Of a stretch of 55,013 bases of DNA, positions 13,272 through 41,486 are shown piece by piece. Each line of letters opens with the position of its first letter. Position 1 is the stretch's first letter. The stretch is from Deltaproteobacteria bacterium (GTDB lineage Bacteria; Myxococcota_A; UBA9042; DTJE01). The stretch is taken from contig JAKPTZ010000002.1 of the NCBI GenBank assembly GCA_029555025.1, forward strand, positions 1 to 55,013, written 5' to 3'. Below the pieces are notes generated by a model. It made no database searches. It was not told where the DNA came from and saw only the letters and a list, made by a program, of their open reading frames with translations. The position numbers and the translations under genes were made by a program.

Positions 13272-14602
13272 CGGGCGCACCTGAACCCGATTTCACCGTC
13301 AAGTCCCGAATCGATTACGATCAATTCGCGGTTAACCGAGCGCAGATCAACCGACGCGGCGCCGCCCAGTGGATCGTGCGAGTATCCGCCCCCGCGCACC
13401 AGGTGGTTCGTTCCGAACGAGGGTCCCTTCGGATCTTCCAACGGGCTGGATTTGTAGTAGTCGGCCTGATAATAATCGGCAACCCATTCCTTGACGTTGC
13501 CGGCCATGTCGCACAGACCGAACGGCGAGTCACCCTTTGGCGACCGGCTGCAGACATTTGCCGTCTTGCCGGTTCCGCATCCGTCCTTGTTGCCGTCATA
13601 CATGATGGCGTATTCGCACGAAGGCTCGGCCGTTCCCCATGGGTAAAGGGCGCCGGCAACCTTGCCGCGTGCCGCGAATTCCCATTCCGCCTCGGTTGGA
13701 AGCCTCTTCGACATCCATTCGCAGAATTTGGACGCATCACGCCACGAAACGCAGACGACCGGCTTGTTCGCGTTCGTGCCGGATTCGAAGCCGCACGTCG
13801 GCTTGTCGCATTCGCCAGCGTCGATGCATTTCTGGAACTGCATCTGGGTGACTTCGGTTTTGTCGATGTAGAAGGCTGAAAGCGTAACGGAATGTTCCGG
13901 CTTTTCGTCCACCTGGCAATTCGCGTTGCTGATCGATATGCCGCATCCCATCGTGAATGTGCCGCCGTCAATTTTGACCATTGCGTCCGAAGCCTGATCG
14001 ATGCACTTACCGGCCACGCAGACCTGGCCGTCGTTCGGGCAAGCCCCGAAAGACCCGCCACAACCGTTGTCGCCACAGACGCGATCCGGATAGGGTTCAC
14101 ATTCGCATTTTGTGCCAACGCATTTGTCCCTTCCCTCGCATTCCCCGCAACTGACGCCGCAAAGCGGGTCAAGGCCGCATTCCTGGTCGCCGCATTTCGG
14201 TATGCAGCCGGAGTCGGCTGCCGTATCCGTCGTGACGTTGTCGGTTTCCGTTGAATCGGTCGATGTCACATCGGCAGATGCATCCTGACCGGCGTCGGAT
14301 GTCCCGGGATCCTCGTTCGTATCGGTTTGATCCCCGGTATCCCTTTCGCCGGAATCGGGAACGCTGCCGTCGAAATAGACATTGGCGTCCGTTCCGGGCG
14401 GGATGCATTTGAAGCCGATACATGACCAGTCGTCATCGCACGTTCCGCAACTGTAATCGGAATTGTAGGCTGAAGATCCGCACTCGCGGTCTTCGCAGAT
14501 AATCATGCACGTTTCGTCGATGCACGAATTGACCGACGGACCGTCATTGGCGCAGCCCACAAAGATAACGGCGAAAATCGCGGCGGAAATTGACCTGCTC
14601 AT
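13268..14602 (-). CDS. Lipoprotein with Cys-rich region and SUMF1 domain
   Basis: A 444-residue lipoprotein (signal ending in VIFVGC, Cys17). It has an N-terminal Cys-rich part, an Asp/Thr-rich linker (about 70-130), a second Cys-rich part (CGDxxCG repeats) and a C-terminal SUMF1 domain (about 208-444). SUMF1 marks are VKIDGGTFTMG, FYIDKTEVTQMQF, RLPTEAEWEFAARG, YPWG, GLCDMAGNVKEWVADYY, LVRGGGY and IGFRCAR. True formylglycine-generating enzymes carry a Cys pair after the RGGS segment; here that stretch (SHDPLGGAASVDLRS) has no Cys, so it is unlikely to modify sulfatases. A ligand-binding role is more likely. Confidence 0.82.
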   Translation of the reverse strand: MSRSISAAIFAVIFVGCANDGPSVNSCIDETCMIICEDRECGSSAYNSDYSCGTCDDDWSCIGFKCIPPGTDANVYFDGSVPDSGERDTGDQTDTNEDPGTSDAGQDASADVTSTDSTETDNVTTDTAADSGCIPKCGDQECGLDPLCGVSCGECEGRDKCVGTKCECEPYPDRVCGDNGCGGSFGACPNDGQVCVAGKCIDQASDAMVKIDGGTFTMGCGISISNANCQVDEKPEHSVTLSAFYIDKTEVTQMQFQKCIDAGECDKPTCGFESGTNANKPVVCVSWRDASKFCEWMSKRLPTEAEWEFAARGKVAGALYPWGTAEPSCEYAIMYDGNKDGCGTGKTANVCSRSPKGDSPFGLCDMAGNVKEWVADYYQADYYKSSPLEDPKGPSFGTNHLVRGGGYSHDPLGGAASVDLRSVNRELIVIDSGLDGEIGFRCAR

Positions 14603-25918: not shown

Positions 25919-26185
25919 GTCATGCCCCCAATAATCATGGCGTCCTTCAAAACCCGGCGTCCGGAAGGACGCGGATTACCGACAAGGTTATCCCTTTTTC
26001 CACGCAACCGGAACACATCCCGCCCAAATCCTTGATTTTATGGTCGGGAACCACGCATGCCGCCAGAAATATGAAGAAAATTGCGATTCTTTCTTGATCC
26101 TGAATTTTCATCCCGTAGAATTGCATTCGCGAAGTCCAAGGCGGATCAGTTGTCCGTTCTTTTCCCGCGAATTCCGGTGACGCCT

Positions 26186-27079
26186 TTGAAGACCATCTTC
26201 CTTTTTCTGTTTGTCCTGCTTGTCTTGCTGCCGACGACCGCGCTTGCCTTCGGGCCGGTCGCGCACGTCGATATGGCGCTTGAAATCCTGTCGTGGGCGG
26301 GTATGGTCGGCGGGTCGCTTGGCGGCCTGATTGCCCGCTACCGTCGCCATTTCATCCTTGGCACGCTGGATCCGGATCGCACTCTTGCAAAGAATCTTGC
26401 GACCTATGAAGACCATTCCCACAACTGGGACACCGCCATCGACCAGTTCCGGTCCGCCCAGTCGGATCAAGAACGGGCCCGCTCGCTTGGGCGCATCTGT
26501 CACCTGGCGGCCGATGTCGTGGCGCACAATTACTTCGTTCCCAAGAAGATTGTCGATTCCGTCGAGTCAAGGGGTGCCGGCCACTTCTTCTGGGAAGTTC
26601 GCTTTGATGCCAGGCTTCGCGAAATCCGCGGGCAGGATGAACTGGAAAGTCTTTCCTTCAATGACAGGGAGGAAATCCGTTACCTTTCGACGATGATTCG
26701 CCCAACGGTCGCGACGAAGAATCTTAACGCCCGTCTTACCGGCGTCGCCATGAAGCTTCAGAAGGCCGGCCCTTACATGGCAGCGACGCGCACGCTTGAC
26801 CGCCGTTCGAACCTGGATTTCACCGACGCCGAAGTAATGGATATCCGTGAGATGGCGATGCAGGCCCAGGTTGTCGCGATCGGTTCCCTTACCGAATCGG
26901 ACGCGATCCCCAGCCCGATTTTTGAACTGGATCCGCGTGGAATTTCCTGTATCCGTCAGTCGCAGAAGGTGCGCGCCGAATTGCGCAGATCCGTTGGCGT
27001 CGGGGACTTAATCGTCGGGCGGCAGCTTCGTCAGCACGAGTTCTTCCGAAATCTGGTCACCTCGAAGCTTCAGTCGTAA
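26186..27079 (+). CDS. Zinc-dependent phospholipase C-like secreted protein
   Basis: About 297 residues with a signal peptide (IFLFLFVLLVLLPTTALA) followed directly by FGPVAH. The TTG at 26186 is preferred because GGTGA lies five bases upstream; a GTG at 26177 is also possible. The histidine-rich helical pattern of the zinc phospholipase C family is visible: AHVDMA, EDHSHNWD, HLAADVVAHNY and HFFWEVRFD. These His and Asp residues would bind zinc. The C-terminal third is basic and poorly defined. Whether it cleaves phospholipids is unknown; many relatives in environmental genomes are uncharacterised. The next gene begins five bases after its stop. Confidence 0.7.
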   Translation: MKTIFLFLFVLLVLLPTTALAFGPVAHVDMALEILSWAGMVGGSLGGLIARYRRHFILGTLDPDRTLAKNLATYEDHSHNWDTAIDQFRSAQSDQERARSLGRICHLAADVVAHNYFVPKKIVDSVESRGAGHFFWEVRFDARLREIRGQDELESLSFNDREEIRYLSTMIRPTVATKNLNARLTGVAMKLQKAGPYMAATRTLDRRSNLDFTDAEVMDIREMAMQAQVVAIGSLTESDAIPSPIFELDPRGISCIRQSQKVRAELRRSVGVGDLIVGRQLRQHEFFRNLVTSKLQS

Positions 27080-27083
27080 CATC

Positions 27084-28388
27084 TTGCCGGGTATTTCAAC
27101 TGGTTCCGATTTGAAGAAGGTTGTCTTTTCCGCAGTCGATTCAAGGATGGCGTATTCATCGCTGGGTTACGGCGCGGTTTTTTCCGGCATGCAGCCGTGC
27201 GACCACGCGTGGCTTGACGGCAGCGGGGCCGACGCCAGGCCGTTCGTGGTCGAGTCCGGGGCGTCATTGTGGTCGTATGACGTCATCTTCGTCAGCATCG
27301 CGTGGGAACTGGAGCTTCCGTCGCTGGTCAAGGCCCTGCGGTCTTCCGGAATCGAGCCTTTTGCGGCGCGCCGTCCCGCCAGCCAGCCTCTTCTGGTCGG
27401 TGGCGGCCCGCTTACCCTGTCAAATCCCAACCTGCCCGGCGCCGTGTGCGATGCCGTTTTCATCGGCGAGGCCGATGGCGCCTTTGCCGATCTGAATCGT
27501 GCGCTTCATGTGGCAACCGGTCGTGAAGATCTTCTTTCGCGTCTTGCCGCGATTCCAGGAATGTGGGTTCCGTCGTCCGGTGCCGCTTGTCCCGATCCCG
27601 TGGTGGCTAAGCTTCCGGAAATACCCCTGTTTTCGGCCTTCCCGGGCAGGGACAATATGTTTTCCGGATCCTTCATCGTGGAAGTCGGCCGTGGCTGTCC
27701 CCGCGGATGCGCCTTCTGTGTCGCCTTCGGTGGCCGTCGCGCAAGGTTCTATCCGTCTGAAGCCATTACCGCCCAGGTGCCCGATGGAACTTCCCGTGTC
27801 GGCCTGCTGGGCGCGGCGGTTTCCGATCATCCCGATTTGAAGGGGATTGTTTCCACCCTTCGGGATCGCGGCATCGGGGTCACGCTTGGATCCCTTCGGG
27901 CGGATCGCGTCGAGCCGGACCTGGTTTCAATGCTGGCGGCCGGTGGCCTTCGCACGTTGACCGTTGCCGCCGACGGGGCATCCGAATCGCTTCGAAAGTC
28001 GATCCACAAGGGCGTCACCGCCGACCACCTTATTCAGGCCGCCCGTGTTGCCCGGGAAACCGGGATCGAAAAAGTGCGCGTCTATGTCATGCTCGGGCTG
28101 CCCGGGGAACAGTCGGGCGACGTCGCGGAATTCGCCGGATTGGTCAATGCCATGGCCGCAATCACAAATGTCGTTGTTTCGGTTTCGCCGTTCGTTCCGA
28201 AGCGCTTCACACCACTTTCGGATGCCGGCTTTGCCGGTGTTGGCACCATCCGCCGGCGGATTTCCGAACTGAAGCGCATGGTGCGGCCCGCGGTTCAAAT
28301 CAGGGCAGGTTCGGTCAAGGAAGCCGAGTTCGAACACCGGCTTTCGCACGCGGAAATGCGCGAAATTCCAGACTTGACTCTTTCCTGA
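27084..28388 (+). CDS. Radical SAM protein with B12-binding-like N-terminus
   Basis: A 434-residue radical SAM protein of the type with a cobalamin-binding-like N-terminal domain. The SAM cluster motif is C205-x3-C209-x2-C212 (CPRGCAFC). Before it, VGGGPLTLSNPN and FIGEADGAF match the B12-type domain of methylthiotransferase- and tetrapyrrole-related proteins. After it come GLLGAAVSDHP, LRADRV and VYVMLGLPGEQ, as in the elongator-like barrel. The start is uncertain: TTG at 27084 or TTG at 27111, neither with a clear ribosome site. The substrate is unknown. It probably shares a transcript with the preceding gene. Confidence 0.8.
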   Translation: MPGISTGSDLKKVVFSAVDSRMAYSSLGYGAVFSGMQPCDHAWLDGSGADARPFVVESGASLWSYDVIFVSIAWELELPSLVKALRSSGIEPFAARRPASQPLLVGGGPLTLSNPNLPGAVCDAVFIGEADGAFADLNRALHVATGREDLLSRLAAIPGMWVPSSGAACPDPVVAKLPEIPLFSAFPGRDNMFSGSFIVEVGRGCPRGCAFCVAFGGRRARFYPSEAITAQVPDGTSRVGLLGAAVSDHPDLKGIVSTLRDRGIGVTLGSLRADRVEPDLVSMLAAGGLRTLTVAADGASESLRKSIHKGVTADHLIQAARVARETGIEKVRVYVMLGLPGEQSGDVAEFAGLVNAMAAITNVVVSVSPFVPKRFTPLSDAGFAGVGTIRRRISELKRMVRPAVQIRAGSVKEAEFEHRLSHAEMREIPDLTLS

Positions 28389-28449: not shown

Positions 28450-30108
28450 ATGCGCCAGTTTTGTACCGTATTTGCTGTATGTCTGGTTTCCTGCCTGATT
28501 TCGGCGTCTTCCGCCGGTCAGACGCTTACGGATACATGGAACAGCCAGGTTGTTTATAAGCCGGTCGAGCAGGCAAACAAGGCTGCCCCGGCCCCGGCCC
28601 CCGCACCCACGCCGGCTGCCCAGCAGACCAGGCCGGCCGAGCCGCCGAAGCCGGCCCCCAAGCCCGCCCAGGTCGATGCCACCGGCCCGATGCGCTTTGG
28701 TATCGCGCTGGTTCAGGGCTTGAAGGCATTTGCCGAGCCCGGCGTCGAGATGAAAGGTACCGGATGGGTTTTCCCGATTCTTCATCCGATGAAGATTGTT
28801 GAAAGCGTTTGCGTTGCCAGGGATGGCAGCAGGCTGGAACCGAACCGCGAAAAGGTCGATGGAACCGTCAAGGAAAAGTGTCCCAATCCGACGTCGTATT
28901 CCCTGTGGTACAAGCTTGAACGTGATCAGGGGCGTTTCGGCTGGGCACGCGCCAGCCACGTCGCCGTCTGGAACAGCCGCCATGCGCTGCGTCCATCCAC
29001 CCAGGCAGGCGCCGAACTCGTCCCCGGATACTGCGACGAGCGCGAGGCCGAAAATTCGGCCCGCGGCAAGAGCGACCCCTGCATGACCTTCAATCGCACC
29101 ATTCTGCAGGCCCAGGGCGAAAGGGCCCCGTTCCCGGTCATCGACGTGAAGGAATTCGGCGACGGCGTTGAATTCGACATGCGCAAGTATTTCAAGGTTC
29201 TGGTTCCCACGCTTTACAGCATGCTTCCCCCTGTCAGGGGAAATGCGGCAATGGATAAGGTTTTCAAGGCCGAATTCATCATCCTGGTCGATGCGACCAA
29301 ATCGATGGAACAGGAAATCGAAGGCACCAAGAACGCCCTGGTTCAACTTGTGCGCGATCTGAAAACCAAGTACCGGGTCGATGCGAAGTTCGTTGTCCTG
29401 GGCTTCCGCGACACCGACGGCTCTTCGGCCGAATGCCCCCCGATGGAAGGCACCACCAACGCCCAAGGGCGGCTGGACTTCGTTTCCGGAGAGGAAGCGA
29501 TTGAATTCCTGTCCAGCCTGTCGGCCGACTGTGGCGGCGATCCGCGCGAGGCAATCTGGGACGCGTTTTACCTGTTGCGCGACCTGGTGGTCGAGCCCGG
29601 TGCCCAGCGAATCCTTTTCCTGATTGGCGACACACCCAGTGTTGAAGTGACCCGCGGCATGACCTTCGGCGGCGTCACTGTGCCGCGCGGCCTGCGTTCG
29701 GAACAGGTTCTTTCAAAGCTGGCGGACGTGTTCGGCGAATCGACCAGGTTTAACGCCCTGCTTGTCAAGAGCGGGCTTATGAAGAAGACGGTTAACGAAA
29801 TCATGAAGGGAAGCCGCTTCTTTGCCAACAACATGCAGCGCGTTGATCAGGTAAGCGCCAAGATCATCCAGGCAAAGGTCAGTGATCTTTTCAACGTGGC
29901 TGCCGGCTCGTCCGGCGCCGACGTCCAGGCGGTCAGCGACTGCAACAACAAGTTCCTTTCCGACGACACTTCCGGTGCGTTCGGCTTCTTCTGTTCAAGG
30001 AAGGGAAACAATCTCGACAGCCGAATCAAGGACCTTCTGTCTGAGGAAGGCCGGACCGGCGATGTCGTCGTCATCCGTGAACTGTGGGTTCCCGCGACAC
30101 AGGCATAG
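28450..30108 (+). CDS. Secreted VWA-domain protein, ended by an in-frame TAG
   Basis: A 552-residue exported protein. The ATG at 28450 has GGAGG 12 bases upstream and is followed by a signal peptide (FAVCLVSCLISASSAG). Next come an Ala/Pro linker (about 45-75), an SH3-like region (about 80-180, with GWVFPILHP and RFGWARASHVAVW), and a von Willebrand A domain (about 275-440). The metal-binding motif DATKS begins at Asp281 and is followed by VVLGFRDTDGSS and LFLIGDTPS. The protein stops at TAG (30106-30108) after VIRELWVPATQA. The same frame continues after the stop in the next feature, so this is probably the first part of one longer gene. It opens the cluster that continues to 41486. Confidence 0.78.
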   Translation: MRQFCTVFAVCLVSCLISASSAGQTLTDTWNSQVVYKPVEQANKAAPAPAPAPTPAAQQTRPAEPPKPAPKPAQVDATGPMRFGIALVQGLKAFAEPGVEMKGTGWVFPILHPMKIVESVCVARDGSRLEPNREKVDGTVKEKCPNPTSYSLWYKLERDQGRFGWARASHVAVWNSRHALRPSTQAGAELVPGYCDEREAENSARGKSDPCMTFNRTILQAQGERAPFPVIDVKEFGDGVEFDMRKYFKVLVPTLYSMLPPVRGNAAMDKVFKAEFIILVDATKSMEQEIEGTKNALVQLVRDLKTKYRVDAKFVVLGFRDTDGSSAECPPMEGTTNAQGRLDFVSGEEAIEFLSSLSADCGGDPREAIWDAFYLLRDLVVEPGAQRILFLIGDTPSVEVTRGMTFGGVTVPRGLRSEQVLSKLADVFGESTRFNALLVKSGLMKKTVNEIMKGSRFFANNMQRVDQVSAKIIQAKVSDLFNVAAGSSGADVQAVSDCNNKFLSDDTSGAFGFFCSRKGNNLDSRIKDLLSEEGRTGDVVVIRELWVPATQA

Positions 30109-30114
30109 CAGGAC

Positions 30115-30510
30115 GTGGCCCTTCTGACAATCGACGAGGCCAGGACGATGGGCCAGAACCTTGCCCAGCTTTCCGTCCAGATCGGCGAGGACGGCTCCGG
30201 CTGCCGCAAGCACGGCGTATCGATCTGGACCGAGACCGTCAAGGCGCTTGTGCCTGTCGAGGACAGCAAGGGCAGCACCACTTCCGCGGTCGTTGGCAAA
30301 AGGCTTCATGACTACTGGCGTCTGAGCGTTGGCGGTGGAAGCGAAGGGTCAATCATTAATTACAGCCCGGATCAGATTGCGTCGCTCGACTCCGACCGTT
30401 GCTTTGCCGTCAGGAACCGTCTTTACAAGGCAAGCCAGCGCATCGAGCAGACGCTTCAGATGCAGAAGAAGAATCAGTATATCTGGTTGAATTTCCAGAA
30501 TATTCCGTGA
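30115..30510 (+). CDS. In-frame continuation of the VWA protein after a TAG
   Basis: A 131-codon frame that lies in exactly the same reading frame as the VWA gene, two codons after its TAG. The only upstream start is a GTG at 30115, and no properly spaced ribosome site precedes it. The sequence joins naturally to the preceding domain: LWVPATQA, stop, then QDVALLTIDEARTMG. The helical C-terminus includes VKALVPVE and RIEQTLQMQKKNQYIWLNF. It may be the separated tail of the VWA protein (a CAG-to-TAG change would do this), a product of stop readthrough, or a reinitiated separate protein. Other genes here end in TAG, so TAG is not a general sense codon. Confidence 0.6.
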   Translation: MALLTIDEARTMGQNLAQLSVQIGEDGSGCRKHGVSIWTETVKALVPVEDSKGSTTSAVVGKRLHDYWRLSVGGGSEGSIINYSPDQIASLDSDRCFAVRNRLYKASQRIEQTLQMQKKNQYIWLNFQNIP

Positions 30511-30544
30511 CCGGTTTGACAATTTCCGCTTGAAGGTGATTGCT

Positions 30545-33010
30545 TTGAGTGAATCAAACAGGCTGTTCGCGCGCTGGTCGGCTTTGAAAAAGGAAGTAAC
30601 CGTCAAGGACGGTTGCGGAATGCGTGTCCTTGATCTGGGGCCGGGGGCGATTCCCCGTGGTCGTCTTGTGTGCGTCCTGGGACCAAGCGGATGCGGCAAG
30701 ACGAGTCTTCTTTCGATTCTTGGGCTTGTTGACCACGAGTTTGAAGGCGACCTTGGCGTCGAACTTGGCGGCAGGTTCCAGCCGATCGGCCAGTGGCGCG
30801 GCAGAAAGCGTCAGCGCGAGTCAGCCCGTCTTCGTCGTCATATCGGGTTCGTATTCCAGGAGATGCGGCTTCGCGCCGGTGCGTCGGCCGTTGAAAACGT
30901 CATGGATCCGATGCTTTACCTGGGATTCGGAACGCCCCGGACCAGGTATTCGCACGCGAAGTCGATGCTGGGGCTGTTTGGCCTTCAGGATCGCGATATC
31001 GAACGTCCAATCTCGTGTTTTTCCGGCGGCATGCAGCAGCGCACCGGCCTGGCCCGCGCGCTGTCGATCGGACCCGACCTGATTATCGCCGACGAGCCGA
31101 CCGCGCACGTCGATGACAAGATGGCCAATGCCATTTACGAAGATTTGAAGCGGCGTTCGGCGGAAAGGGGAATCACCGTCGTTGTGGCGACCCACAACGA
31201 GGAAATGGCCGACAAGCATGCCGACCATATCATCCGCTTCAAGCCGAAGTTCCAGGACGAGGAAGAAGTCCGTCGTGCCAAGGATCTGGGCGAGTGGCCG
31301 TATGACCTTATCGTCGAGCGCGAGGCCGAGGGCATCGAGCCCGCCGATGCAAAGGGCGAGACCCCGAAGCGCGCCTCGACTCTTGGAAGTTTCAAGGATA
31401 TGGCCGTAGTCGCGCTTGGCGAGGGCTATCCCCTTGTAAGGGTTACCGGTCGCGGGATTCGCGCCCTTGGCTGGGGGTGGGCGGCCGCCCTGGTGAACAG
31501 GCTGCGCAAGAAACCGTCGGTCAGACGCGAAAGAATCGCGCCGCACCGGTATCTTCCGTTACTGGTGTCAATCGTGACCTTCGGTCTGCTGGCCGGAATG
31601 GGATTTTCACTTTACGGCATCAAGTCGGCGATCCTTGCGTACCAGCAGTCCAAGTTGGAGTCGCTCGAATCCCTGCGTCGCGTAAGGGTGTTCGATCCAG
31701 GCGACCTTGAAGGCGGCGCGATACGCCTTGATGTGGCCGACGTTGAAAAATTCGCGGCCGAACACGGCGTTAAGATTACCGAAAGCGTGCCGGTGCACGA
31801 TCTGGGCGGCGAGGCCCTGATCCCGTCCGAAATGGCGCACCTGGCAAGCGAGGGTCAGTGGGCGCCGGTTCAGTCGTCGGCGTTGCTGGATCCAAGCTCG
31901 ATTGACGATCGCGAACGGAATGCCAACCGGATCTTCTTCACGATTCTTGGCACTTTCCCGAACGAGCCACAGGCCAGGGACCAGGGCTTGCCGGCCGAGC
32001 CGAGCGGGTTCGCTCCAAAGGACGATACTGCACCGGCCGTCTGGATTCCGCGGAACGAGTGGGAATGGCTTTACGGCAATTTCGAGGCGCTTCCCGAGCC
32101 GGGAGATTCGGTCGGCGTCATGTTCATGGGCATCGCCCGCATGGAACGCACCCCGGAAGCCCAGGGTGATGTCATCCCTCCCGCGGTGTGCGTGCGTTTC
32201 AATATCGGCGGCTACCTGAATCCGCCGCGCCTGCCGTCCGGATTCGTGTCCGAGGTTCAGGCCAAGTATTACAAGGCCGTTGTATCAAAGGATGTCGTGA
32301 AGCGCATTCTTGAATGGCAGAACGATCCCCTGAATCCTGCGAAGGCTCTGCCGGATGCCTGGCGGTGCGAAGGCTCGCCGTCGATTTATCCCGACTGGCA
32401 ATACACAGTCAAGGACGAGGTCAGGGCCCCGGCGGCGACCCAGTTCGATTTCTTCGCCCCGACGCCGTCGGACGCGCTGAAACTGGAAAGGATCCTGGAA
32501 GACTACTCTTCCGATCGCGGCCTGACGTTCGGCAGGGTTTCTTCCGAACGCGGGTTCATCCAGCAGGTTTCACGCCTGATCAAGCTGGCAGAATATGTCG
32601 GGCTTGTGCTTCACGTCCTGCCGATCGCCGTCGGCGGCGTCATTCTGTGGCTGGTCGTTCACGAGATCCTGTTCCGCCGGCGCGAGGATCTTCTTCTTTT
32701 CCACGTGATGGGCGCTCCGACCATCAACCTTCATGTCCAGTCGCTGGTTCTTTCAATGCTGGTCGTGCTGCCAGGCATCCTTATTGGTTACATCATCGGC
32801 AGCGCGGGGCCGGGTCTTATGGTCGGCGTGATGTCCAACGAAACCCTTCCGCCCGACCTGCTTGAGCACCTGGCCAAGGTCGGAATCGGCTGGGTCGGGC
32901 TTCTGCAAACGACCGTCGCGGCGGTCATTTGCGCGGTTTTTGCTTCGTTCACGGTCGTGAAGTCGATCCTTTCGTCGAATCCGGCTTCTGCTTTCAGGGG
33001 TATGCAATGA
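30545..33010 (+). CDS. MacB-type ABC transporter, ATPase and permease fused
   Basis: An 821-residue inner-membrane ABC protein. The TTG at 30545 has AAGGTGA upstream. The N-terminal ATPase is complete: Walker A GPSGCGKTS, Q-loop VFQEMRL, signature CFSGGMQQR, Walker B LIIADEP and switch histidine in ATHN. A linker leads to one membrane helix (YLPLLVSIVTFGLLAGMGF), a large extracytoplasmic domain of roughly 300 residues, and three C-terminal helices. This is the layout of MacB and of Lol-type mechanotransmission transporters, which pull substrates or signals across the envelope rather than through the membrane. No MacA-type partner is present; the flanking secreted proteins may be partners. Its end overlaps the next gene by four bases. 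Confidence 0.87.
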   Translation: MSESNRLFARWSALKKEVTVKDGCGMRVLDLGPGAIPRGRLVCVLGPSGCGKTSLLSILGLVDHEFEGDLGVELGGRFQPIGQWRGRKRQRESARLRRHIGFVFQEMRLRAGASAVENVMDPMLYLGFGTPRTRYSHAKSMLGLFGLQDRDIERPISCFSGGMQQRTGLARALSIGPDLIIADEPTAHVDDKMANAIYEDLKRRSAERGITVVVATHNEEMADKHADHIIRFKPKFQDEEEVRRAKDLGEWPYDLIVEREAEGIEPADAKGETPKRASTLGSFKDMAVVALGEGYPLVRVTGRGIRALGWGWAAALVNRLRKKPSVRRERIAPHRYLPLLVSIVTFGLLAGMGFSLYGIKSAILAYQQSKLESLESLRRVRVFDPGDLEGGAIRLDVADVEKFAAEHGVKITESVPVHDLGGEALIPSEMAHLASEGQWAPVQSSALLDPSSIDDRERNANRIFFTILGTFPNEPQARDQGLPAEPSGFAPKDDTAPAVWIPRNEWEWLYGNFEALPEPGDSVGVMFMGIARMERTPEAQGDVIPPAVCVRFNIGGYLNPPRLPSGFVSEVQAKYYKAVVSKDVVKRILEWQNDPLNPAKALPDAWRCEGSPSIYPDWQYTVKDEVRAPAATQFDFFAPTPSDALKLERILEDYSSDRGLTFGRVSSERGFIQQVSRLIKLAEYVGLVLHVLPIAVGGVILWLVVHEILFRRREDLLLFHVMGAPTINLHVQSLVLSMLVVLPGILIGYIIGSAGPGLMVGVMSNETLPPDLLEHLAKVGIGWVGLLQTTVAAVICAVFASFTVVKSILSSNPASAFRGMQ

Positions 33011-34971
33011 AGTCATCAAACAACAAGGTTGTAAAAACGATGAAGTGTGCAGTGAATGTGGGGACCCTGACGGTTTTCCTGTTACTGGGCCTGCTGCTGG
33101 CGCCGGTTGTGGCTTCCGCGGACGGCGCGGCCGAGTTCCGACTGGTTTCGGGCTTCAAGCCGACGCTGCAGAAGTGTCCGGCCAGCGATGCTTGCGAAGT
33201 CACGCTGGTGAAGGAATACGGCGCATGGATGTGGCAGGCAAGTTGCACCGCCAAGCTGGGCGAGGACGTTTTCCGCAGGCTGGACCTGTTGAAGCGCCGT
33301 GAAGCCGACGTGGTGGCCATTGTCGTTTCCAAGGCAAAGCGTGCCGTCGCCGCCGACATCCTTGACTACATCGATGAAAGGCGCCAGGGGCACCTGCTGG
33401 ATTCGGGGCGGCTTCGCCTGGTTCGTCTGGAGGAAGTCCAGAGGCACAAGGTTGATGAAAAGCTGCTTGAACTGTGCGCCCCCGCGGTGGCTTTGCCGGA
33501 TGGGATGTCCTTCCCGCCGAACACCGCGATCGTCTTCGTCGGTGACAAGGGCGAGGCACCGAAGAGCAATCCATGCAAGGACGAGCGCTGGCGCGATGGC
33601 GTGACAGTTCTTTCGAATATGGATGATATCGACCAGATCGTCGGACGCAAGCTGGACGACTTGATCAGTACGAAAAGCCAGATCGAGGACATCAAGCGGC
33701 ACGAGCGCAAGGCGTGCGAGGAAACCGGTGACGCCAGCGCTTTCATCGAGCTTGTTTTCGACCCGGTCGTGAAGGACTCCGCCGGTGACAGCCCGAACCT
33801 GTCGGCGTCCGACCTGGGCCTGGACAACGCCGAGATCGTTACGCAGTTGCGCAAGATGGGCGTCGAGATTTCGTCACAGCTTTCAAGCCTTTTCCCGGCC
33901 GATGTTGAAAGATCCGCGATGAAGCGTGAAGACGGCAAGTGGGCCTTGAACGCACAGAAGCTGCGATCGTTGATGGCACTGGCCGACAGCAGGGCCGGCG
34001 AAAAGATGCTGAAGCAGGCCAGCGCCAAGTTGATTGCCCAGATTCAATCGGCGATGACGCGCGTCGAGCGTTTCACTTCAACTTACAGTGGCGGCAAGGG
34101 ACCGGATCTGACGATCGATGCGATGAAGGCCCGGAACGAACTGGTCACGCGCAAGTACGGCCAGGTTTGCGGGGGTTCGGGCATCACCGCCGAGTGCTCG
34201 TCGGCGCGTGCCAGGATTGATGAACTGGAGGCCAGGCTGGAATCCTTTGAAAAGGAGCCGGCACCCATCGCGGCATCCCCGGTTGCCCAGGCCGCCCCGG
34301 CAAAGCCAATCGACGAGTGGAGTCGTGAAGCCACGGCGTCCCTGCAGACGCTGCAGGGCAACGTGGTTTTGTGCAAGACCAGGGAATGCCTGGATGGCCA
34401 GGCGATTGAATACGCCCGTCTTAACGGCTCGATCGAAAGGTACCAAAGGGAATACGGCGCCAGCGTCGCCGCGGGGAAGGGGGTTGACCCCAGGATTGTG
34501 GAGCTTGAGAACCTGATGGCTTCGGCCGAGGCCGACCTTGGCGCAGCCCGCGGCACGCCGGCCAGTTGGTCGAAGATGAAGATTGGTGGCGTTGCCGCGC
34601 TTTCCGCCGGCGGCCTGATAATGATCGCCGCCATCGTTCCGCTGCTGATGGCGAATTCCGAAATGAAGAAGATTGAAGACGCGACCAACGGCGGGATTGT
34701 GCCAAGAGCATGGTTAAGTATTGATGGTTTTGGGGATCAGTGGTGGTACAGGATCAACAAATTTGATGTCGACGACATTGGAGCAATGGTGACCCGCCAG
34801 CGCATGAAGGCCATTATCGGATGGTCCGTTCTTGGCGCCGGCGCACTGGCCGCGATTGCCGGCGGCGTGCTGCTTGGCGTCGATGCGATGAAGGAAGGCA
34901 GGAACAAGCCCACCGTAACGGTCGCCCCGGTTGAATCCGGCGCCGTCGTCGGTGTCAACATGTCATTCTAG
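33007..34971 (+). CDS. Secreted or membrane-anchored coiled-coil protein
   Basis: A 654-residue protein starting at an ATG that overlaps the transporter stop (ATGA), with AGGGG upstream, so coupled translation is likely. It has a signal peptide (VFLLLGLLLAPVVASA). An alpha/beta domain (about 45-210), with CPASDAC and IVFVGDKGEAP, is followed by a long helical part with Glu/Arg-rich segments such as CSSARARIDELEARLE. Near the end are two membrane helices (AALSAGGLIMIAAIVPLLM and WSVLGAGALAAIAGGVLLG). I recognise no family. Overlap with the ABC gene suggests that it is a partner of the transporter. Confidence 0.75.
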   Translation: MKSSNNKVVKTMKCAVNVGTLTVFLLLGLLLAPVVASADGAAEFRLVSGFKPTLQKCPASDACEVTLVKEYGAWMWQASCTAKLGEDVFRRLDLLKRREADVVAIVVSKAKRAVAADILDYIDERRQGHLLDSGRLRLVRLEEVQRHKVDEKLLELCAPAVALPDGMSFPPNTAIVFVGDKGEAPKSNPCKDERWRDGVTVLSNMDDIDQIVGRKLDDLISTKSQIEDIKRHERKACEETGDASAFIELVFDPVVKDSAGDSPNLSASDLGLDNAEIVTQLRKMGVEISSQLSSLFPADVERSAMKREDGKWALNAQKLRSLMALADSRAGEKMLKQASAKLIAQIQSAMTRVERFTSTYSGGKGPDLTIDAMKARNELVTRKYGQVCGGSGITAECSSARARIDELEARLESFEKEPAPIAASPVAQAAPAKPIDEWSREATASLQTLQGNVVLCKTRECLDGQAIEYARLNGSIERYQREYGASVAAGKGVDPRIVELENLMASAEADLGAARGTPASWSKMKIGGVAALSAGGLIMIAAIVPLLMANSEMKKIEDATNGGIVPRAWLSIDGFGDQWWYRINKFDVDDIGAMVTRQRMKAIIGWSVLGAGALAAIAGGVLLGVDAMKEGRNKPTVTVAPVESGAVVGVNMSF

Positions 34972-34982
34972 GAGGCTGTCAG

Positions 34983-35726
34983 ATGAAACATACAGATTCA
35001 ATGTTTGACAAGGTTGCCGCCGCCGCATGTATCGTCGTTCTTGGCGCCGTCGGTTGCGTGGCCGAGCAGTTCGAATGTGATGACAATAAACCGTGCAGCG
35101 AATCCGGTGAGGTGTGCGTTTATTATCTTGACTCGTCAGATAAGATTGCGGCAACAGCCTGTGTCAAGCAGTTCGAGGTGTTCGGGGTTAAGGACACGGC
35201 ATTCAACTTCCAGGACAAGGTTCCTATCAAGTTTGCCAATAGCTTCGCATTTGGTTTGAACCCCGTTTCGATTGTGGAATACGAGTACTGCGTTGATAAG
35301 AAAGAATGTAAAGCCATCCCGCAGGAAGGGATTGACCCAGAATGCAACGCTTACAACGCCAACGCGGATCCTGAACAGGCGATTAACTGCATCACCTGGG
35401 CCGAGGCCAACAAATACTGTGAATTCGCCCAGGGCCGCCTGTGTTCGGAAGTGGAATGGGAATACGCGATGGGCCAGTTGCAGGAACCGGCCGGGACGGT
35501 GCTGGAGTGGGTTGAGGATGACTGGGATGAAGACATTTCATCCATGCCCAAGGACGGAACGGCCAGGACGGATGGATCAGCTTCGAATGGCGTGGTTCGT
35601 GGTGTGATTAACATGGCCAATGGCGCAGCCGGCGATCCGTGGATGCAAAGGAACAGCAAGGCCCGTCATGCCAGGGACACTGTTGTCGGATTCCGTTGCT
35701 GCAGTGATGTACCGATTACCAAGTAA
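34983..35726 (+). CDS. Small SUMF1-like lipoprotein
   Basis: A 247-residue lipoprotein (signal ending in GAVGC, Cys25) with AGGAGG before the ATG, 11 bases after the preceding stop. A Cys-rich stretch follows, then a short version of the SUMF1 fold: NPVSIVEYEYCVDKKEC, AINCITWAEANKYCEF, GRLCSEVEWEYAMG, VLEWVEDDWDED and VVGFRCC. The middle part that normally carries YPWG and DMAGN is missing, so the fold is pared down. It has no catalytic Cys pair of formylglycine-generating enzymes. A binding role is more likely than catalysis. It lies between the transporter-linked protein and the kinase gene. Confidence 0.75.
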   Translation: MKHTDSMFDKVAAAACIVVLGAVGCVAEQFECDDNKPCSESGEVCVYYLDSSDKIAATACVKQFEVFGVKDTAFNFQDKVPIKFANSFAFGLNPVSIVEYEYCVDKKECKAIPQEGIDPECNAYNANADPEQAINCITWAEANKYCEFAQGRLCSEVEWEYAMGQLQEPAGTVLEWVEDDWDEDISSMPKDGTARTDGSASNGVVRGVINMANGAAGDPWMQRNSKARHARDTVVGFRCCSDVPITK

Positions 35727-35764
35727 GGTTGAGTGATGACGATGCATCCAAGGGGCATTAACAG

Positions 35765-37774
35765 ATGAAGGCAATCTGCCCGCATTGCAGGACCCCGCAC
35801 GCGGTCGTCGGCGTAAGGTGCACGACCGAAAGCTGCCAGGCTGCCGGTTATCATTCGATTCCGGCCGGCTGGATGAAGACGGCCGAGGAACACTTTGCAA
35901 GGAAGGGTGTCACGACAGATCCCCTTCTTGGCCGCATGCTTTCGAATGAGTACCTTCTTGCCGGTTACCTTGGCGAAGGCGGAATGGGGTCGGTTTATCT
36001 GGCGCTTCAGTATCCGCTTGAACGCGAAGTCGCAATCAAGACGGTCCTGAACCAGGCTTTCGGGGACGTCGCGCTGAAGCGTTTCATGCGTGAAGCGAAG
36101 TCGCTGGGCGATCTGGATCACCCGGGTATCGTGAAGCTGTTCCATTTTGGCATTGAAAAGCTTGAATTTTCAATGCCTTTCATGGTTATGGAGTACGTCC
36201 GTGGCGGGAAGTGGCTTGACCGGTTTTTCCAGTCCGAGCGCCAGGAAGGCCGTCCGGTTTCCCCGGAACTGGTCTGCCGGATGTTCGAGCAGGTTCTTGA
36301 AGCCCTGGATGCCGCGCATTCCATCAATATCGTTCACCGCGACATCAAGCCGGCCAATATCCTGGTGACCGGAAGCGGGATGGACGCCAGGGCCAAAATC
36401 CTGGACTTCGGGCTTGCCAAGCCGATTCACGAGGAAGCCAATTCCGACAACCTGACGAAGTCGCTGGAAACGATCGGGACACCGATGTACATGGCGCCGG
36501 AACAGGCGAAGTCGTCGTTGATGTCCCGCGTTGACGGAAGGACCGACCTGTACTCGGTCGGCGTGATGATGTTCCATGTCCTGACCGGCGTTCTGCCGTT
36601 CCGTGGCGGCACCCCGATTGAAATCCTGATGCAGAAGGCGGATCCGACCTATGACCCGCTTTCGTTGCCCCAGGCCGCGGATTTGTCGCCAGGTTTCCGC
36701 GATTTCTTCCGTCGAGTTCTTGCTTCGTCACCGACCAGGCGTCCCGAAACCGCAAAGAAGATGGCGGCCGAATTCAAGTACCTGATGACTTCGGATCAGA
36801 CGGTCACGACCATCCTGAACACGGGACCCCACGAGGCGGCAAGGCAGCGATTCGATTCGCCGCTTTATTACAACCGGCCCGACAGTTCGTCGTATTCGGA
36901 TTCATCCCATCCTTCCGACCGGAACGATCCGTCGATCGATCAGGGAACAAGGCGGCGGCGGGGTGGGGGCGGCACTGGCGACGGTTTGTGGAAGTGGCTC
37001 CTGTTTTCGGGGGTCGTCCTTTGCGCCGCCGCGATGGGGCTGCTGGTATATCTGCTGTTTGCGGGCGAGTCGGGAAGCGTCCCGACAGGTCCGGCCCCGG
37101 GCGTGATTGCCGGTGCCGTGACAGAGCAGGGCCAGCCGCCCGGTCAGGGCGCGTATCCGGCCGCCGGTCAGCAGGTTCAGAATCCCGTGGTGCCGCAGGG
37201 GCAGCCCGTCCAGAATCAGCAGGCCGGCGTGGTTCCCGCCCAGCCTGGCGGGGTGCCAGGGCAGCCGGCAACTTTGCAGGGTGCGCCTTTGCAGGGGGCG
37301 CCTTTGCAGCCGGTTCCGGGACAGGCGGTCGCCGTCGGGCAGCAGGCACCACAGGGGCAGGTGGCTGGCCAGCCCGGCATGATTGCCGATACGGCGGGCG
37401 CAGCCCCGGTGGATCCGCAGCCGACGCAGCCGACGGAAACCGCGGATCAGGCGGCCCAGGCCGATAGTCCGGCCCAGGCCGATAAGCCGGCCGAAACCGC
37501 CGAAAAGGTCGAACCGGTAAACGAATCGGAACTGGAACCGTTCGAGGTGGAGTTCAAGATTTTTCCCCCTCGGGCCGGCGTGTTCATGAACGGCAAGAAG
37601 ATTGGGACCGGCAGCTTCAAGAAGGTGCTGCGGGGGCTGGAGCCGGAATCAAAGGTTCGGGTCAGTGTCGATGGCGGGGAGGACTGCGAGCCGTCCTCCC
37701 GTTCGTATCAGGCGATTGACCTGTATAGTGCCGGGTTTGTCTCGATCAGGCTCGAGTGTCTTCGCGACAACTAG
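35765..37774 (+). CDS. Transmembrane Ser/Thr protein kinase with zinc ribbon and PEGA end
   Basis: A 669-residue eukaryotic-type kinase. The N-terminus has a short zinc ribbon (Cys5, Cys8, Cys19, Cys24). The kinase domain (about 62-345) is complete: GEGGMGSVY loop, VAIK Lys92, HRDIKPAN with Asp193, DFG with Asp214, and APEQAK. A basic stretch (TRRRRGGGG) and a membrane helix (about 411-433) follow, then a Gln/Pro/Gly-rich region of about 150 residues and a PEGA-like beta domain at the end (PPRAGVFMNGKKIGTG). The kinase thus sits in the cytoplasm and the PEGA end outside. The FHA protein encoded next is the obvious partner for phosphothreonine reading. Confidence 0.93.
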   Translation: MKAICPHCRTPHAVVGVRCTTESCQAAGYHSIPAGWMKTAEEHFARKGVTTDPLLGRMLSNEYLLAGYLGEGGMGSVYLALQYPLEREVAIKTVLNQAFGDVALKRFMREAKSLGDLDHPGIVKLFHFGIEKLEFSMPFMVMEYVRGGKWLDRFFQSERQEGRPVSPELVCRMFEQVLEALDAAHSINIVHRDIKPANILVTGSGMDARAKILDFGLAKPIHEEANSDNLTKSLETIGTPMYMAPEQAKSSLMSRVDGRTDLYSVGVMMFHVLTGVLPFRGGTPIEILMQKADPTYDPLSLPQAADLSPGFRDFFRRVLASSPTRRPETAKKMAAEFKYLMTSDQTVTTILNTGPHEAARQRFDSPLYYNRPDSSSYSDSSHPSDRNDPSIDQGTRRRRGGGGTGDGLWKWLLFSGVVLCAAAMGLLVYLLFAGESGSVPTGPAPGVIAGAVTEQGQPPGQGAYPAAGQQVQNPVVPQGQPVQNQQAGVVPAQPGGVPGQPATLQGAPLQGAPLQPVPGQAVAVGQQAPQGQVAGQPGMIADTAGAAPVDPQPTQPTETADQAAQADSPAQADKPAETAEKVEPVNESELEPFEVEFKIFPPRAGVFMNGKKIGTGSFKKVLRGLEPESKVRVSVDGGEDCEPSSRSYQAIDLYSAGFVSIRLECLRDN

Positions 37775-37845
37775 CTGTGACGGTTTCGTGGTCTTGCCGA
37801 ATTCGTCGGCTTCCCGAATGAACTGAGTTTCAGGCTTTTAACTTT

Positions 37846-38346
37846 ATGAATCCGATGGTTGCAAAACTGATCGTTCTCGCGCTGCTTCTGGCGGGATTGA
37901 TACTTGTGCTGGCGGCCATCCTGCGAAGGCGGCAGAGGGTGCTTTCCGTCGGCGGTTGCCAGGGGCAGGCAGGACGGTATCAACGCCAGTCCGATGTGTG
38001 GCGCCTTATTCCAACGTCAAAAAATCATTGGACCCGGCATGAAATCGTCCTGTCACGCGGCAACTACCGGGTCGGAAGGGCCCAGGGCAACGACATCGTT
38101 CTGGATTGCAGGTTCGTTTCCCGCGAGCACGCGGTCTTCCGGGTCGCATCCGGCTGGCTTGTGTTGCTTGGCAGCGAACTTCATTCACCGATTTTCGTGC
38201 GGTGTTCCGGGGCGTCGAAGTTCAGGAAGCTTGGCGCCAGCGAGGAGTTCCGCTTTGATACGGGGGACCTTCTTTCGTTCAATTCGCCCGACGGCGGCAT
38301 GGTTTTCCAGGTTGTTCCCGGCGGTCGTGAAGAAGGTCGATGGTAA
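37846..38346 (+). CDS. Membrane-anchored FHA-domain protein
   Basis: A 166-residue protein with one N-terminal membrane helix (about 6-26) followed by RRRQR, which places the rest in the cytoplasm. The FHA domain (about 65-160) shows the binding residues: YRVGR (Gly77, Arg78), then FVSREHAVF (Ser92, Arg93, His95), and a late DTGDLLSF strand. FHA domains bind phosphothreonine, so this protein should read marks made by the kinase encoded just upstream. It is followed after 51 bases by the caspase gene. There is no clear ribosome site before the ATG at 37846. Confidence 0.85.
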   Translation: MNPMVAKLIVLALLLAGLILVLAAILRRRQRVLSVGGCQGQAGRYQRQSDVWRLIPTSKNHWTRHEIVLSRGNYRVGRAQGNDIVLDCRFVSREHAVFRVASGWLVLLGSELHSPIFVRCSGASKFRKLGASEEFRFDTGDLLSFNSPDGGMVFQVVPGGREEGRW

Positions 38347-38397
38347 TGTGTATAATGGCGCATCCAATTTCGCCATTTCGTTTTCCGGAGGTTTGCG

Positions 38398-40509
38398 ATG
38401 ATTGACAACGGATGCAGGCTGGCTCGCATATTCGGTTCAGTGCTGATATTTGTGGCATCCGTCCTGACCATGGCGGCCGTTTCCGCATCGGCCGCGGAAT
38501 CATCGGTCGGGTGGCCCGACCTGACCAAGCCGGCAAGGACCGTGGGCGGCGGTCGTGACGACGTCGCACTGCTTATCGGAATCGAGGACTACGTCCTGGT
38601 CCCACGCGTCGAGGGCGCGCGCGAAAACGTCGAGTCCTGGTACCGCTGGATGCTTCAGTCCCGCGGAGTCCCGATCGGCAATATCCGCCTGGTGCTGGAT
38701 CAGGACGCGTCCGTCGAAGGCATGCGCAACGCCTTGCAGGAAGTCGTCGCCAAGGCGAATCCGGCCGGAACCCTGTGGATTGTGTTCGTCGGGCACGGTG
38801 CACCCAGTTCCGACGGACATGACGGCCTTCTTATCGGCATGGACGCCCGCCAGACGGTCGCAAGCCTTCAGGATCGATCGTTTTCCCGCAATGAACTGAT
38901 GCGGATTGCCCAGTCATCGTCCGCCGGTCAGGTTCGCATTATCATCGACGCATGCTTTTCCGGCCTGGGCACGTCCGGAAAGCCAATCGTCCAGGGCTTG
39001 CAGCCAATCGTCCTTGCCGCCGATTCCGCTGTGGCCGATCCCCGGTTCGTCGTAATGACCGCCGCCAAGGAAGATCAGTACGCCGGCCCGCTTCCCGGGG
39101 CGACGCGTCCGGCCTTCAGTTACCTGGTTCTTGGCGCCTTGCGCGGCTGGGCCGATTCGAATCTTGACGGCATGGTCACGGCCGCGGAAGCGCATGGTTA
39201 TGTCGAACAGGTCTTTTCGTCCATAATTCGTGACCGCAAACAGCAACCGACACTTGTGGGCGAAAAGGACTCGATGCTTTCACCGGCAACCGGCGAGCCG
39301 GCGCCCGATCTTGGCGAACTGATCCTGAAGCTGAACAAGGGCTTTGCCGTTGAGACCCAGCTTCCAACGGTTCCCAAGGTCAGTACCGTCCGCGCGCTGG
39401 ACGCCGACGCCCTTAAGTTCGACCTGAACGACGTTGAGAATCTTCAGGAATACGACCGCGTCATTCGCGCCGACAGAAGTGGCCTGACCCCGATGGAAAA
39501 GGCCCGCGCGTGGCGCGATCTGGCGATCAAGGCCCCGAAGTACGAAAAGCTTGCGATTTCCCGCGCCCAGGAATGGGAAAAGTACCAGGCGGAAATGGAT
39601 CAGGCCGAGCAGATTCGCCGCCAGCGCGCGGAAAGCCGTGATCGCGACTGGGAAAAGCTGCGCAAGGCGCTTCCGCTTGAAGTCGTACCTGAAGATGACA
39701 AGCGTCAGTGGGCCAAAATGTTCGTGGATGCCTATGGGACATCGCTTTCCGACAACCCGTACGCTTCGCTGCTTGCCCCGTACCTGCCGCGGGGAACCGT
39801 TCCTGTCCTGGTGGAATTCGCGATGCTCGGCGGCGGCGCCTTCTCGATGGGTTCCGTCAGCGGGATGCCGAACGAACGTCCGGTCAGGCGGATGAGTGTC
39901 GCGGATTTTGAATTGAGCGTCACGGAAGTCACCGTCGCCCAGTACAGGCGATGCGTGGAAATCGGCGTTTGTACTGAACCGGGGCCTGGTCGCGACTGCA
40001 ACTGGAACCGTGAGGGCGTCGATGACCATCCGATTAACTGCGTCGATTACGAACAGGCCACCGCTTTCGCGAAGTGGGCGGGTGGCCGCCTTCCGACCGA
40101 AGTCGAGTGGGAATACGCAGCCAAGAGCGGCGGCCAGGATTCCGCGTACCCGTGGGGCAACGATTCGGCGACCTGTCAGCGCGCCATCATGGACGATCCG
40201 GCAAGCGGTTCCGGCTGCGGAAAGGGGTCGACCCTTCCCGTGTGTTCCAAGCCGGCCGGTAATTCCGTCCAGGGCCTTTGCGACATGGCCGGCAACGTCC
40301 GCGAGTGGACCAGTTCCGAATACGTCCCGCCGGCGACCGAATCCACCCCCGGTTTCGACAGTTATGGCGATGCGACGGTGAAGATGGTCGTACGCGGCGG
40401 GTCGTGGTTCAACGGACCGAAGTTCGTGCGCGCGTCAAGTCGCGGTGGGGTGCTTCCCACCGAGCGATCGGTATATACCGGCTTCAGGGTTGCCAGGGAC
40501 GCGCCGTAG
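38398..40509 (+). CDS. Secreted caspase-like protease fused to a SUMF1 domain
   Basis: A 703-residue exported protein with GGAGG before the ATG. A signal peptide (VLIFVASVLTMAAVSASAA) leads to a C14 caspase/metacaspase domain (about 52-290). The catalytic His133 is in VFVGHGAPS and Cys186 in IIIDACFSG, both with their usual surroundings, so it should be active. A charged helical linker (about 355-450, rich in Glu and Arg) follows. The C-terminal SUMF1 domain (about 475-703) has GGGAFSMGS, SVTEVTVAQYRRC, RLPTEVEWEYAAKSG, CDMAGNVREW and VVRGGSW, but lacks the catalytic cysteines of formylglycine-generating enzymes. Export of a caspase is notable; most bacterial caspases in defence systems are cytoplasmic. 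Confidence 0.9.
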   Translation: MIDNGCRLARIFGSVLIFVASVLTMAAVSASAAESSVGWPDLTKPARTVGGGRDDVALLIGIEDYVLVPRVEGARENVESWYRWMLQSRGVPIGNIRLVLDQDASVEGMRNALQEVVAKANPAGTLWIVFVGHGAPSSDGHDGLLIGMDARQTVASLQDRSFSRNELMRIAQSSSAGQVRIIIDACFSGLGTSGKPIVQGLQPIVLAADSAVADPRFVVMTAAKEDQYAGPLPGATRPAFSYLVLGALRGWADSNLDGMVTAAEAHGYVEQVFSSIIRDRKQQPTLVGEKDSMLSPATGEPAPDLGELILKLNKGFAVETQLPTVPKVSTVRALDADALKFDLNDVENLQEYDRVIRADRSGLTPMEKARAWRDLAIKAPKYEKLAISRAQEWEKYQAEMDQAEQIRRQRAESRDRDWEKLRKALPLEVVPEDDKRQWAKMFVDAYGTSLSDNPYASLLAPYLPRGTVPVLVEFAMLGGGAFSMGSVSGMPNERPVRRMSVADFELSVTEVTVAQYRRCVEIGVCTEPGPGRDCNWNREGVDDHPINCVDYEQATAFAKWAGGRLPTEVEWEYAAKSGGQDSAYPWGNDSATCQRAIMDDPASGSGCGKGSTLPVCSKPAGNSVQGLCDMAGNVREWTSSEYVPPATESTPGFDSYGDATVKMVVRGGSWFNGPKFVRASSRGGVLPTERSVYTGFRVARDAP

Positions 40510-40538
40510 TCGCGCGGGTTTTGTGAAAAGGGGTATGA

Positions 40539-41486
40539 ATGAACCGTAACTTCACGACAGTTATTGCGGTCGTCTGTTCCGTGGCAACGATATCCGCGGT
40601 TGTCGGGTGTGCGTCCGGCCGCCCCGCGACGACGGTGACGAAGCCAGTTTCCCAGGCCCCCGAACTGCCCGCCCCGGTCGTCACCAAACTGCCGGATCGC
40701 GGCTGGGTGGATGTGCGGGTCAGCGTCATCGGAACCGACGCCGAATCCAAGGCGACCGTCGTTAACCGGGCCCTTGCCGCGGCCAGGCGCGAGGCGATTG
40801 AAAGCGTGGGCGGCGTTGCCGTGACTTCGGGCCTTATGTCGTTTAACAGTACCGGTGGCGCCGGCGACCAGGGGTTGGTCCAGTCAATCGATGTTAACCG
40901 CACGACCGCGCTGATCGTCGAGGAAAGGCGGGGGCCCGACAAGGTCGTACCTTTCCAGGGTGGTTTCAGGCTGGACGTGCAGTTGCAGGCCCGTGTCATC
41001 GATTTGCGGGAAGTCGCCGGGACCGGGTTCAAGCTGGATGTCGATCTGGGCGACCGCCGCTTTATCGACGGCGAGGACATCGCCATTTCAATCGCTTCGT
41101 CACGCGATGCCTGGATTTCGATTTTCAGCGTTTCCGACGAGGGCGTAAGCATGCTGGCGCCGAATTCGATCACCCCCAGGGTGGGCGTCGAGGCCGGCGT
41201 CAGGACCGTGTTTCCCGGACCGGAACTGACGTCGCGTGGCGTTCACATCCGCGCAAAGGTTCCGTCCGGCATGACCCAGGTGACTGAATCCATCCTGGTC
41301 ATCGCGGTCAGTTCACTGCGTCCGTCGCCGATGTGGCTTGATGATTCGAAGCTGACCAATCCGTATTCGGCCGGCAGCCAGGTCGGGCCCCTTGAAATCC
41401 TGTCCGCCGCATTGCTGCCGCTGGCCGAGTTGCCCCCGACCGACTGGACCATCACCCAGATTCCGTACCAGGTCATTGCCCACTGA
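40539..41486 (+). CDS. DUF4384 lipoprotein
   Basis: A 315-residue lipoprotein (signal ending in AVVGC, Cys24). The middle (about 55-160) resembles LPP20/FlgT-like modules that start with a strand and the helix VVNRALAAARREAIESVGG. The second half (about 165-275) matches DUF4384: RFIDGEDIAISIASSRDAWI, then FSVSDEGVSMLAPN. DUF4384 is often found with caspases, kinases and TPR proteins in bacteria, and its function is not known. It follows the caspase gene by 29 bases and closes the cluster. Its stop lies two bases before the stop of the opposing TPR gene. Confidence 0.8.
   Translation: MNRNFTTVIAVVCSVATISAVVGCASGRPATTVTKPVSQAPELPAPVVTKLPDRGWVDVRVSVIGTDAESKATVVNRALAAARREAIESVGGVAVTSGLMSFNSTGGAGDQGLVQSIDVNRTTALIVEERRGPDKVVPFQGGFRLDVQLQARVIDLREVAGTGFKLDVDLGDRRFIDGEDIAISIASSRDAWISIFSVSDEGVSMLAPNSITPRVGVEAGVRTVFPGPELTSRGVHIRAKVPSGMTQVTESILVIAVSSLRPSPMWLDDSKLTNPYSAGSQVGPLEILSAALLPLAELPPTDWTITQIPYQVIAH

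Follow-up and report, generated by a model that had tools for sequence, protein, structure and literature searches.

We analyzed a 55,013-nucleotide window of contig JAKPTZ010000002.1, from a Deltaproteobacteria bacterium (GCA_029555025.1) whose 3.49 Mb genome is 97.6% complete; the metagenome-assembled genomes with which it was compared have contig breaks. Eight open reading frames (ORFs) occupy positions 28450-41486 of the forward strand, in agreement with the same-strand run that had been predicted there. They encode, in order, a VWA protein, an ATP-binding cassette (ABC) transporter, a coiled-coil protein, a lipoprotein with a formylglycine-generating enzyme (FGE) domain, a Ser/Thr kinase, an FHA protein, a caspase-FGE fusion and a DUF4384 lipoprotein (Table 1). 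The intergenic distances from the ABC gene through the DUF4384 gene are -4, 11, 38, 71, 51 and 29 bp, a spacing that makes an operon plausible. Promoter and terminator scans of the run gave site numbers no higher than those in shuffled sequence.

Table 1. Features of the gene run, in window coordinates
Feature	Position	Strand	Description
VWA gene	28450..30510	+	Signal peptide, N-terminal region, VWA domain, conserved C-terminal region
In-frame amber codon	30106..30108	+	Within the VWA gene; profile search also reports one internal TAG
ABC transporter	30530..33010	+	Nucleotide-binding domain fused to FtsX-type permease; MacB layout
Coiled-coil membrane protein	33007..34971	+	Signal sequence, ~490 aa periplasmic part, two transmembrane segments near the C-terminus
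FGE/SUMF1-fold lipoprotein	34983..35726	+	Lipobox AVGC
Ser/Thr kinase	35765..37774	+	Transmembrane
FHA protein	37846..38346	+	N-terminal transmembrane anchor
Exported caspase	38398..40509	+	Fused to C-terminal FGE-fold domain
DUF4384 lipoprotein	40539..41486	+	Lipobox VVGC; conserved partner of the caspase gene

The conserved core of the run is the VWA-ABC-coiled-coil triad. A survey of the permease family in 110 relatives and in 379 sampled Myxococcota genomes found it in three genomes of each set, all from one family and belonging to three genera: the window genome (G000), G008 and G005. The gene order VWA-ABC-coiled-coil was the same in all three, and the same locus in a relative was identified on the Myxococcota contig JARKOL010000355.1. 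A contig scan with the window ABC gene recovered the G008 contig only. The triad is followed by an FGE lipoprotein gene in the window and G008, and by the gene of a related, short Cys-rich lipoprotein in G005. The next gene in G005, on the opposite strand, encodes a full-length relative of the window kinase that includes its N-terminal Cys motif; among the 14-40 kinase matches per genome in the 12 other genomes of the family it was the best (E = 4.3e-114, 51% over 350 aa; next best 2.1e-91). The G008 contig ends past the lipoprotein position, where the kinase stands in G005. A check set with the original prediction was whether the ABC, coiled-coil, kinase, FHA and caspase genes stay together in relatives; this was borne out for the ordered triad in three genomes and for the kinase in G005, but not for FHA, which is not conserved, or for the caspase, which is unlinked in G005. 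A kinase-FGE fusion gene adjoins the triad's kinase in G005 (L015, 2537-4918), a second association of FGE with a kinase.

The ABC protein contains ABC_tran (PF00005, 7.6e-23) and FtsX C-terminal (PF02687, 3.1e-7) domains, with intact Walker A (GPSGCGKT), signature (FSGG), Walker B (ADEPT) and H-loop (ATH) motifs. Its predicted topology is 1+3, with the nucleotide-binding domain followed by a transmembrane helix (TM) at 344-362, a large periplasmic domain and TMs at 692-710, 739-757 and 796-814; the start codon may be TTG 30530, GTG 30536 or TTG 30545. The permease part is 65% identical in G008 and 50% identical in G005. Nucleotide-binding motifs, 1+3 topology with a large periplasmic insert and FtsX C-terminal domain are all shared with the type VII ABC transporters MacB, LolCDE and FtsEX. 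In contrast to MacB exporters, the permease has no Pfam MacB_PCD match and the gene run contains no HlyD/MacA-type adaptor or TolC; unlike MacB, LolCDE and FtsEX, the transporter is partnered by a coiled-coil protein with two TMs and its permease family occurs in just 3 of the 379 genomes. The coiled-coil gene overlaps the ABC stop codon by 4 bp (ATGA) in the window genome, G005 and G008, and conservation of this overlap in all three argues that the two proteins are partners made in step. The periplasmic part of the coiled-coil protein contains helical segments. Structure predictions of the permease (mean pLDDT 41.7) and the coiled-coil protein (mean pLDDT 54.1; no Foldseek match below E 0.1) were too poor for use because the alignments were too shallow.

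The lipoprotein downstream of the triad matches the FGE/SUMF1 fold (PF03781, 2.3e-13). Active formylglycine-generating enzymes carry an active-site cysteine pair. This pair is absent from both FGE domains of the run, the corresponding C-terminal motif being GGSWFNGPKFVRASSRGG in the caspase-FGE protein and RGVINMANGAAGDPWMQRNSKARHA in the SUMF1 lipoprotein; the SUMF1 domains that had been predicted in both proteins thus hold as folds but lack the canonical cysteines, and because these are missing both are likely binding or structural domains. Membership in GldJ/GldK gliding or type IX secretion systems was rejected for the FGE domains, whose matches to these proteins come only through the common fold and lie far below cut-offs. 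The kinase (Pkinase, 2.6e-47) retains its VAIK, HRDIKP and DFG motifs, has a single TM at 412-430 and carries an N-terminal Cys motif (CPHC...CTTESC). Its transmembrane kinase architecture was as predicted; Pfam reports no PEGA domain at the periplasmic end, where only a PEGA-like motif is visible. The FHA protein gave a partial Pfam match. It had been described as cytoplasmic, but residues 8-26 form a strong TM helix at its N-terminus, followed by RRR, and for this reason the protein is membrane-anchored, its FHA part being probably cytosolic.

The caspase has a His-Cys dyad in a p20-like domain (His133 in GHGAP, Cys186 in DACFSG), invariant in a 29-sequence alignment, by which the predicted protein fits the orthocaspases (C14-like). 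The predicted signal peptide and intact catalytic residues were confirmed. The protein matched the NCBIfam model caspase_w_EACC1 (3.8e-17, below its cut-off) and the PADLOC caspase model (3.3e-12). Pfam PF00656 does not match it, and a PF00656 search found no caspase in the genome; the conclusion that the locus has no caspase was rejected in view of the catalytic motif and the NCBIfam and PADLOC matches. An exported caspase had been considered new. A profile of the caspase part gave matches in 203 of the 379 Myxococcota genomes, and 27 of the 28 readable loci among the best 30 begin with a signal-peptide-like sequence, as judged by a simple hydrophobicity rule; the FGE domain is present in 10 of the 29 aligned members. 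Precedent also exists in a 2012 survey of prokaryotic caspases, in which FGE-sulfatase fusions made up 4.9% of sequences and 46 sequences had just one helix, possibly a signal peptide, at the N-terminus (PMC3501461). Predicted exported caspases are therefore ordinary in Myxococcota. The window protein shares with the orthocaspases of that survey the GHG/DACFSG dyad, the C-terminal FGE fusion and the N-terminal signal peptide, and differs from them in its poor match to PF00656, its DUF4384 lipoprotein partner and its adjacent kinase and ABC genes. A role in anti-phage defence was rejected, as PADLOC gave generic kinase and ATPase matches and a weak caspase model; a caspase of such a system would be cytosolic and accompanied by defence partner genes, whereas this one has a signal peptide and no recognised defence partner beyond those generic matches.

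The run had been described as a combination of parts that rarely occur together. TagQRST, PpkA and Fha1, which contains an FHA domain, form a post-translational switch of the H1 type VI secretion system (T6SS) of Pseudomonas aeruginosa. In this threonine-phosphorylation pathway (TPP), TagR1 is an FGE-sulfatase-domain protein (PMC7253367), TagS and TagT form an ABC transporter and TagQ is an outer-membrane lipoprotein (PMC6657622), and the PpkA kinase has a periplasmic VWA domain (PMC3224232); the combination of FGE, ABC, VWA, transmembrane kinase and FHA is thus a known one. The TagQRST-PpkA-Fha pathway responds to outer-membrane damage (PMC11881912), and the suggestion that the kinase/FHA pair reports envelope state fits this precedent. 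The presence of a related kinase gene next to the G005 triad also speaks for the original interpretation. By kinds of parts, the window locus resembles the TagQRST-PpkA-PppA-Fha1 cluster in bringing together an FGE periplasmic protein, an ABC transporter, a lipoprotein, a Ser/Thr kinase, a periplasmic VWA domain and an FHA protein, and its kinase is likewise transmembrane with a periplasmic part. Unlike that cluster, it has an additional coiled-coil membrane protein, a membrane-anchored FHA protein and an appended caspase-DUF4384 pair.

The T6SS itself was sought in the same genomes. Neither the sheath protein VipB/TssC nor the baseplate protein TssF was found in the 97.6%-complete window genome, in a search that did not include other Tss families. 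VipB was present in 11 of the 110 relatives and the permease in three, with no overlap between the two groups. No homologue of the VWA, ABC or coiled-coil gene was found within 20-40 kb of the T6SS loci of Myxococcota relatives, and none of four T6SS-bearing plasmid regions (one of them unannotated) has an annotated TagQRST. The locus is not counted as a member of the TPP because a T6SS, a kinase-VWA fusion and a PppA gene in the cluster were not found.

On the basis of the like parts and the undetected sheath and baseplate genes, we tentatively propose, as a reading that falls somewhat short of probable, that the VWA, ABC, coiled-coil and lipoprotein genes together with the kinase form a T6SS-free sensor of envelope state with TPP-like logic, placed next to a separable caspase module. 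It is favoured by the constant order of the triad and its ATGA overlap in three genera, by the lipoprotein genes at the matching position in G008 and G005, by the best-matching kinase standing next to the G005 triad and by the restriction of caspase-FGE to the triad genomes of the family. The observed gene set, order, topology, residues and triad conservation are the material from which we infer each functional step. The lipoprotein and the VWA protein would report a disturbance of the outer envelope, and the ABC/coiled-coil complex, by analogy with MacB/LolCDE/FtsEX-type transporters, would spend ATP to set or relay this state across the periplasm. Engagement of the periplasmic end of the kinase could then lead to phosphorylation of cytosolic targets, here probably the membrane-anchored FHA protein, a target that would be peculiar to this genome. 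The caspase-FGE/DUF4384 pair would be a second, separable module of the periplasm and outer membrane and may serve as an output in this genome. If correct, this would mean that a TPP-type switch for envelope damage does not depend on type VI secretion and is able to drive different outputs, and the locus would offer a system in which the signal and the ABC component of the switch could be studied without the weapon.

Several observations weigh against this proposal. The likeness to TagQRST/PpkA is one of kinds of parts. In the window, VWA is a separate exported protein instead of part of the kinase, the nucleotide-binding domain is fused to the permease, and no PP2C phosphatase (PppA) is encoded among the eight genes, the rest of the genome not having been searched for one. 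The VWA gene carries a stop codon in this genome. A search for FHA orthologues in relatives returned generic matches only, the G005 kinase lies on the strand opposite to the triad, and the caspases of G005 lie on other contigs, away from the triad. Finally, tblastn of VWA and permease against a set of plasmids in which 437 records carry TssC gave no match.

Alternatively, two unrelated modules may simply adjoin here: a VWA-ABC-coiled-coil machine for mechanotransmission or export, similar to MacB/LolCDE, and a widespread pair of exported caspase and DUF4384 lipoprotein, separated by an FHA gene and a kinase gene of generic myxobacterial type, without integrated signalling. We regard this as a real possibility, to be held with some doubt. 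The DUF4384 lipoprotein gene adjoins the caspase gene in the window, in G005 (contig C68) and in the more distant genomes G306 (L073) and G127 (L075); because neither G306 nor G127 gave a match to the triad's permease, the pair is a separate two-gene module. Its position apart from the triad in G005, the FHA gene without an orthologue, the many kinase genes of each family genome and the frequency of exported caspases across the phylum all point in the same direction. The kinase orthologue beside the triad in G005 and the tight gene spacing in the window argue for a closer connection, as does the patchy distribution that the caspase-FGE gene shares with the triad: among the 13 genomes of the family, a full-length caspase-FGE was found in exactly the three triad genomes (3/3 versus 0/10; the G008 copy sits at the edge of its contig). 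The chance of this co-occurrence is 1/286 if the genes are independent, a figure that ignores shared history and the small number of genes tested. Co-presence in these three genomes is the only link between transporter and caspase; the predicted driving or gating of the caspase finds no direct support, the caspase-DUF4384 pair of G005 being on a different contig from the triad. An integrated version, in which the ABC/VWA/coiled-coil complex would act through kinase and FHA on the periplasmic caspase, forming a T6SS-independent damage sensor with a regulated envelope protease cascade, is improbable in our view.

The stop codon in the VWA gene could also indicate a locus in decay, in which a truncated VWA protein leaves the system without function in this genome. 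The gene had been predicted to end at 30108, where its ORF halts at TAG after 552 aa; this end is wrong, as the frame remains open and conserved for 133 more codons and the TAG lies inside a longer gene. The apparent 421-bp gap ahead of the ABC gene arises because the VWA gene really extends to 30510. The relatives in G008 and G005 are single ORFs of ~650 codons with CTG (Leu) and ATG (Met), respectively, at the TAG site. Decay would explain an in-frame TAG with conserved sequence running on beyond it, but the lesion is single, the 133 codons past it retain 60% identity with G008 (41% with G005) and contain no further stop or frameshift, and the other seven genes are intact. The TAG either arose recently as a nonsense mutation or reflects an assembly error. 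A lone lesion in a conserved frame is what an assembly error or a mutation of very recent date would leave, and we consider loss of function unlikely. Pfam recognises the VWA domain itself weakly (VWA_4, E 1.8e-4, under the cut-off); a MIDAS-like DATKS motif is found at residue 281, and a profile built from the family matches VWA-type segments of other proteins at columns ~188-330. Two further members of the family were noted. In G008, a second protein encoded just upstream of the triad (L013, 8021-9274, reverse strand) has lost the VWA domain and kept the N- and C-terminal parts, and the window genome has an intact, 30% identical paralogue on contig C77 (L044, 3287-5281) without ABC or coiled-coil neighbours.

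The transporter could, finally, act as FtsEX does on EnvC, its ATPase reshaping a coupled coiled-coil protein that in turn switches on an enzyme of the envelope, for which the exported caspase and a cell-wall enzyme are possible candidates. The best NCBIfam match of the nucleotide-binding domain is FtsE (E 1.9e-34), the permease has an FtsX C-terminal domain, the ATGA coupling to the coiled-coil gene is conserved and the run also encodes an exported protease; yet the FtsE score is far too low for the equivalog cut-off (119 against 265 bits) with LolD, DevA and MacB nearly equal, the coiled-coil protein differs from EnvC in its two C-terminal TMs and lacks a structural match, and the caspase is unlinked from the triad in G005, which makes this mechanism quite doubtful.

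Pairs of an exported caspase and a DUF4384 lipoprotein recur in Myxococcota, which moves the focus from cytosolic death roles of these proteases towards possible envelope roles. A comparable arrangement was seen on plasmid pW43D of the Roseobacter P. marina (L103, 9821-15117), where a caspase gene, a DUF4384 gene, two ExbD genes and a TolQ/ExbB gene directly adjoin a T6SS cluster. As in the window, the caspase gene adjoins the DUF4384 gene and an envelope system is close by; unlike the window, the pair is tied to a T6SS and ExbB/ExbD, and no VWA-ABC triad is annotated in the stretch. Array-like sets of about five exported-type caspase gene matches were observed on single contigs of two genomes (G253:C354 and G268:C574).

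Upstream of the run, its strand also carries genes for zinc-dependent phospholipase C-like and radical SAM proteins (26081-28388), which end 61 bp ahead of the VWA gene; the G005 and G008 loci showed no match to these genes. A further FGE-domain lipoprotein gene lies at 13268-14602 and is related to the FGE part of the caspase (35%) and to the G008 lipoprotein.

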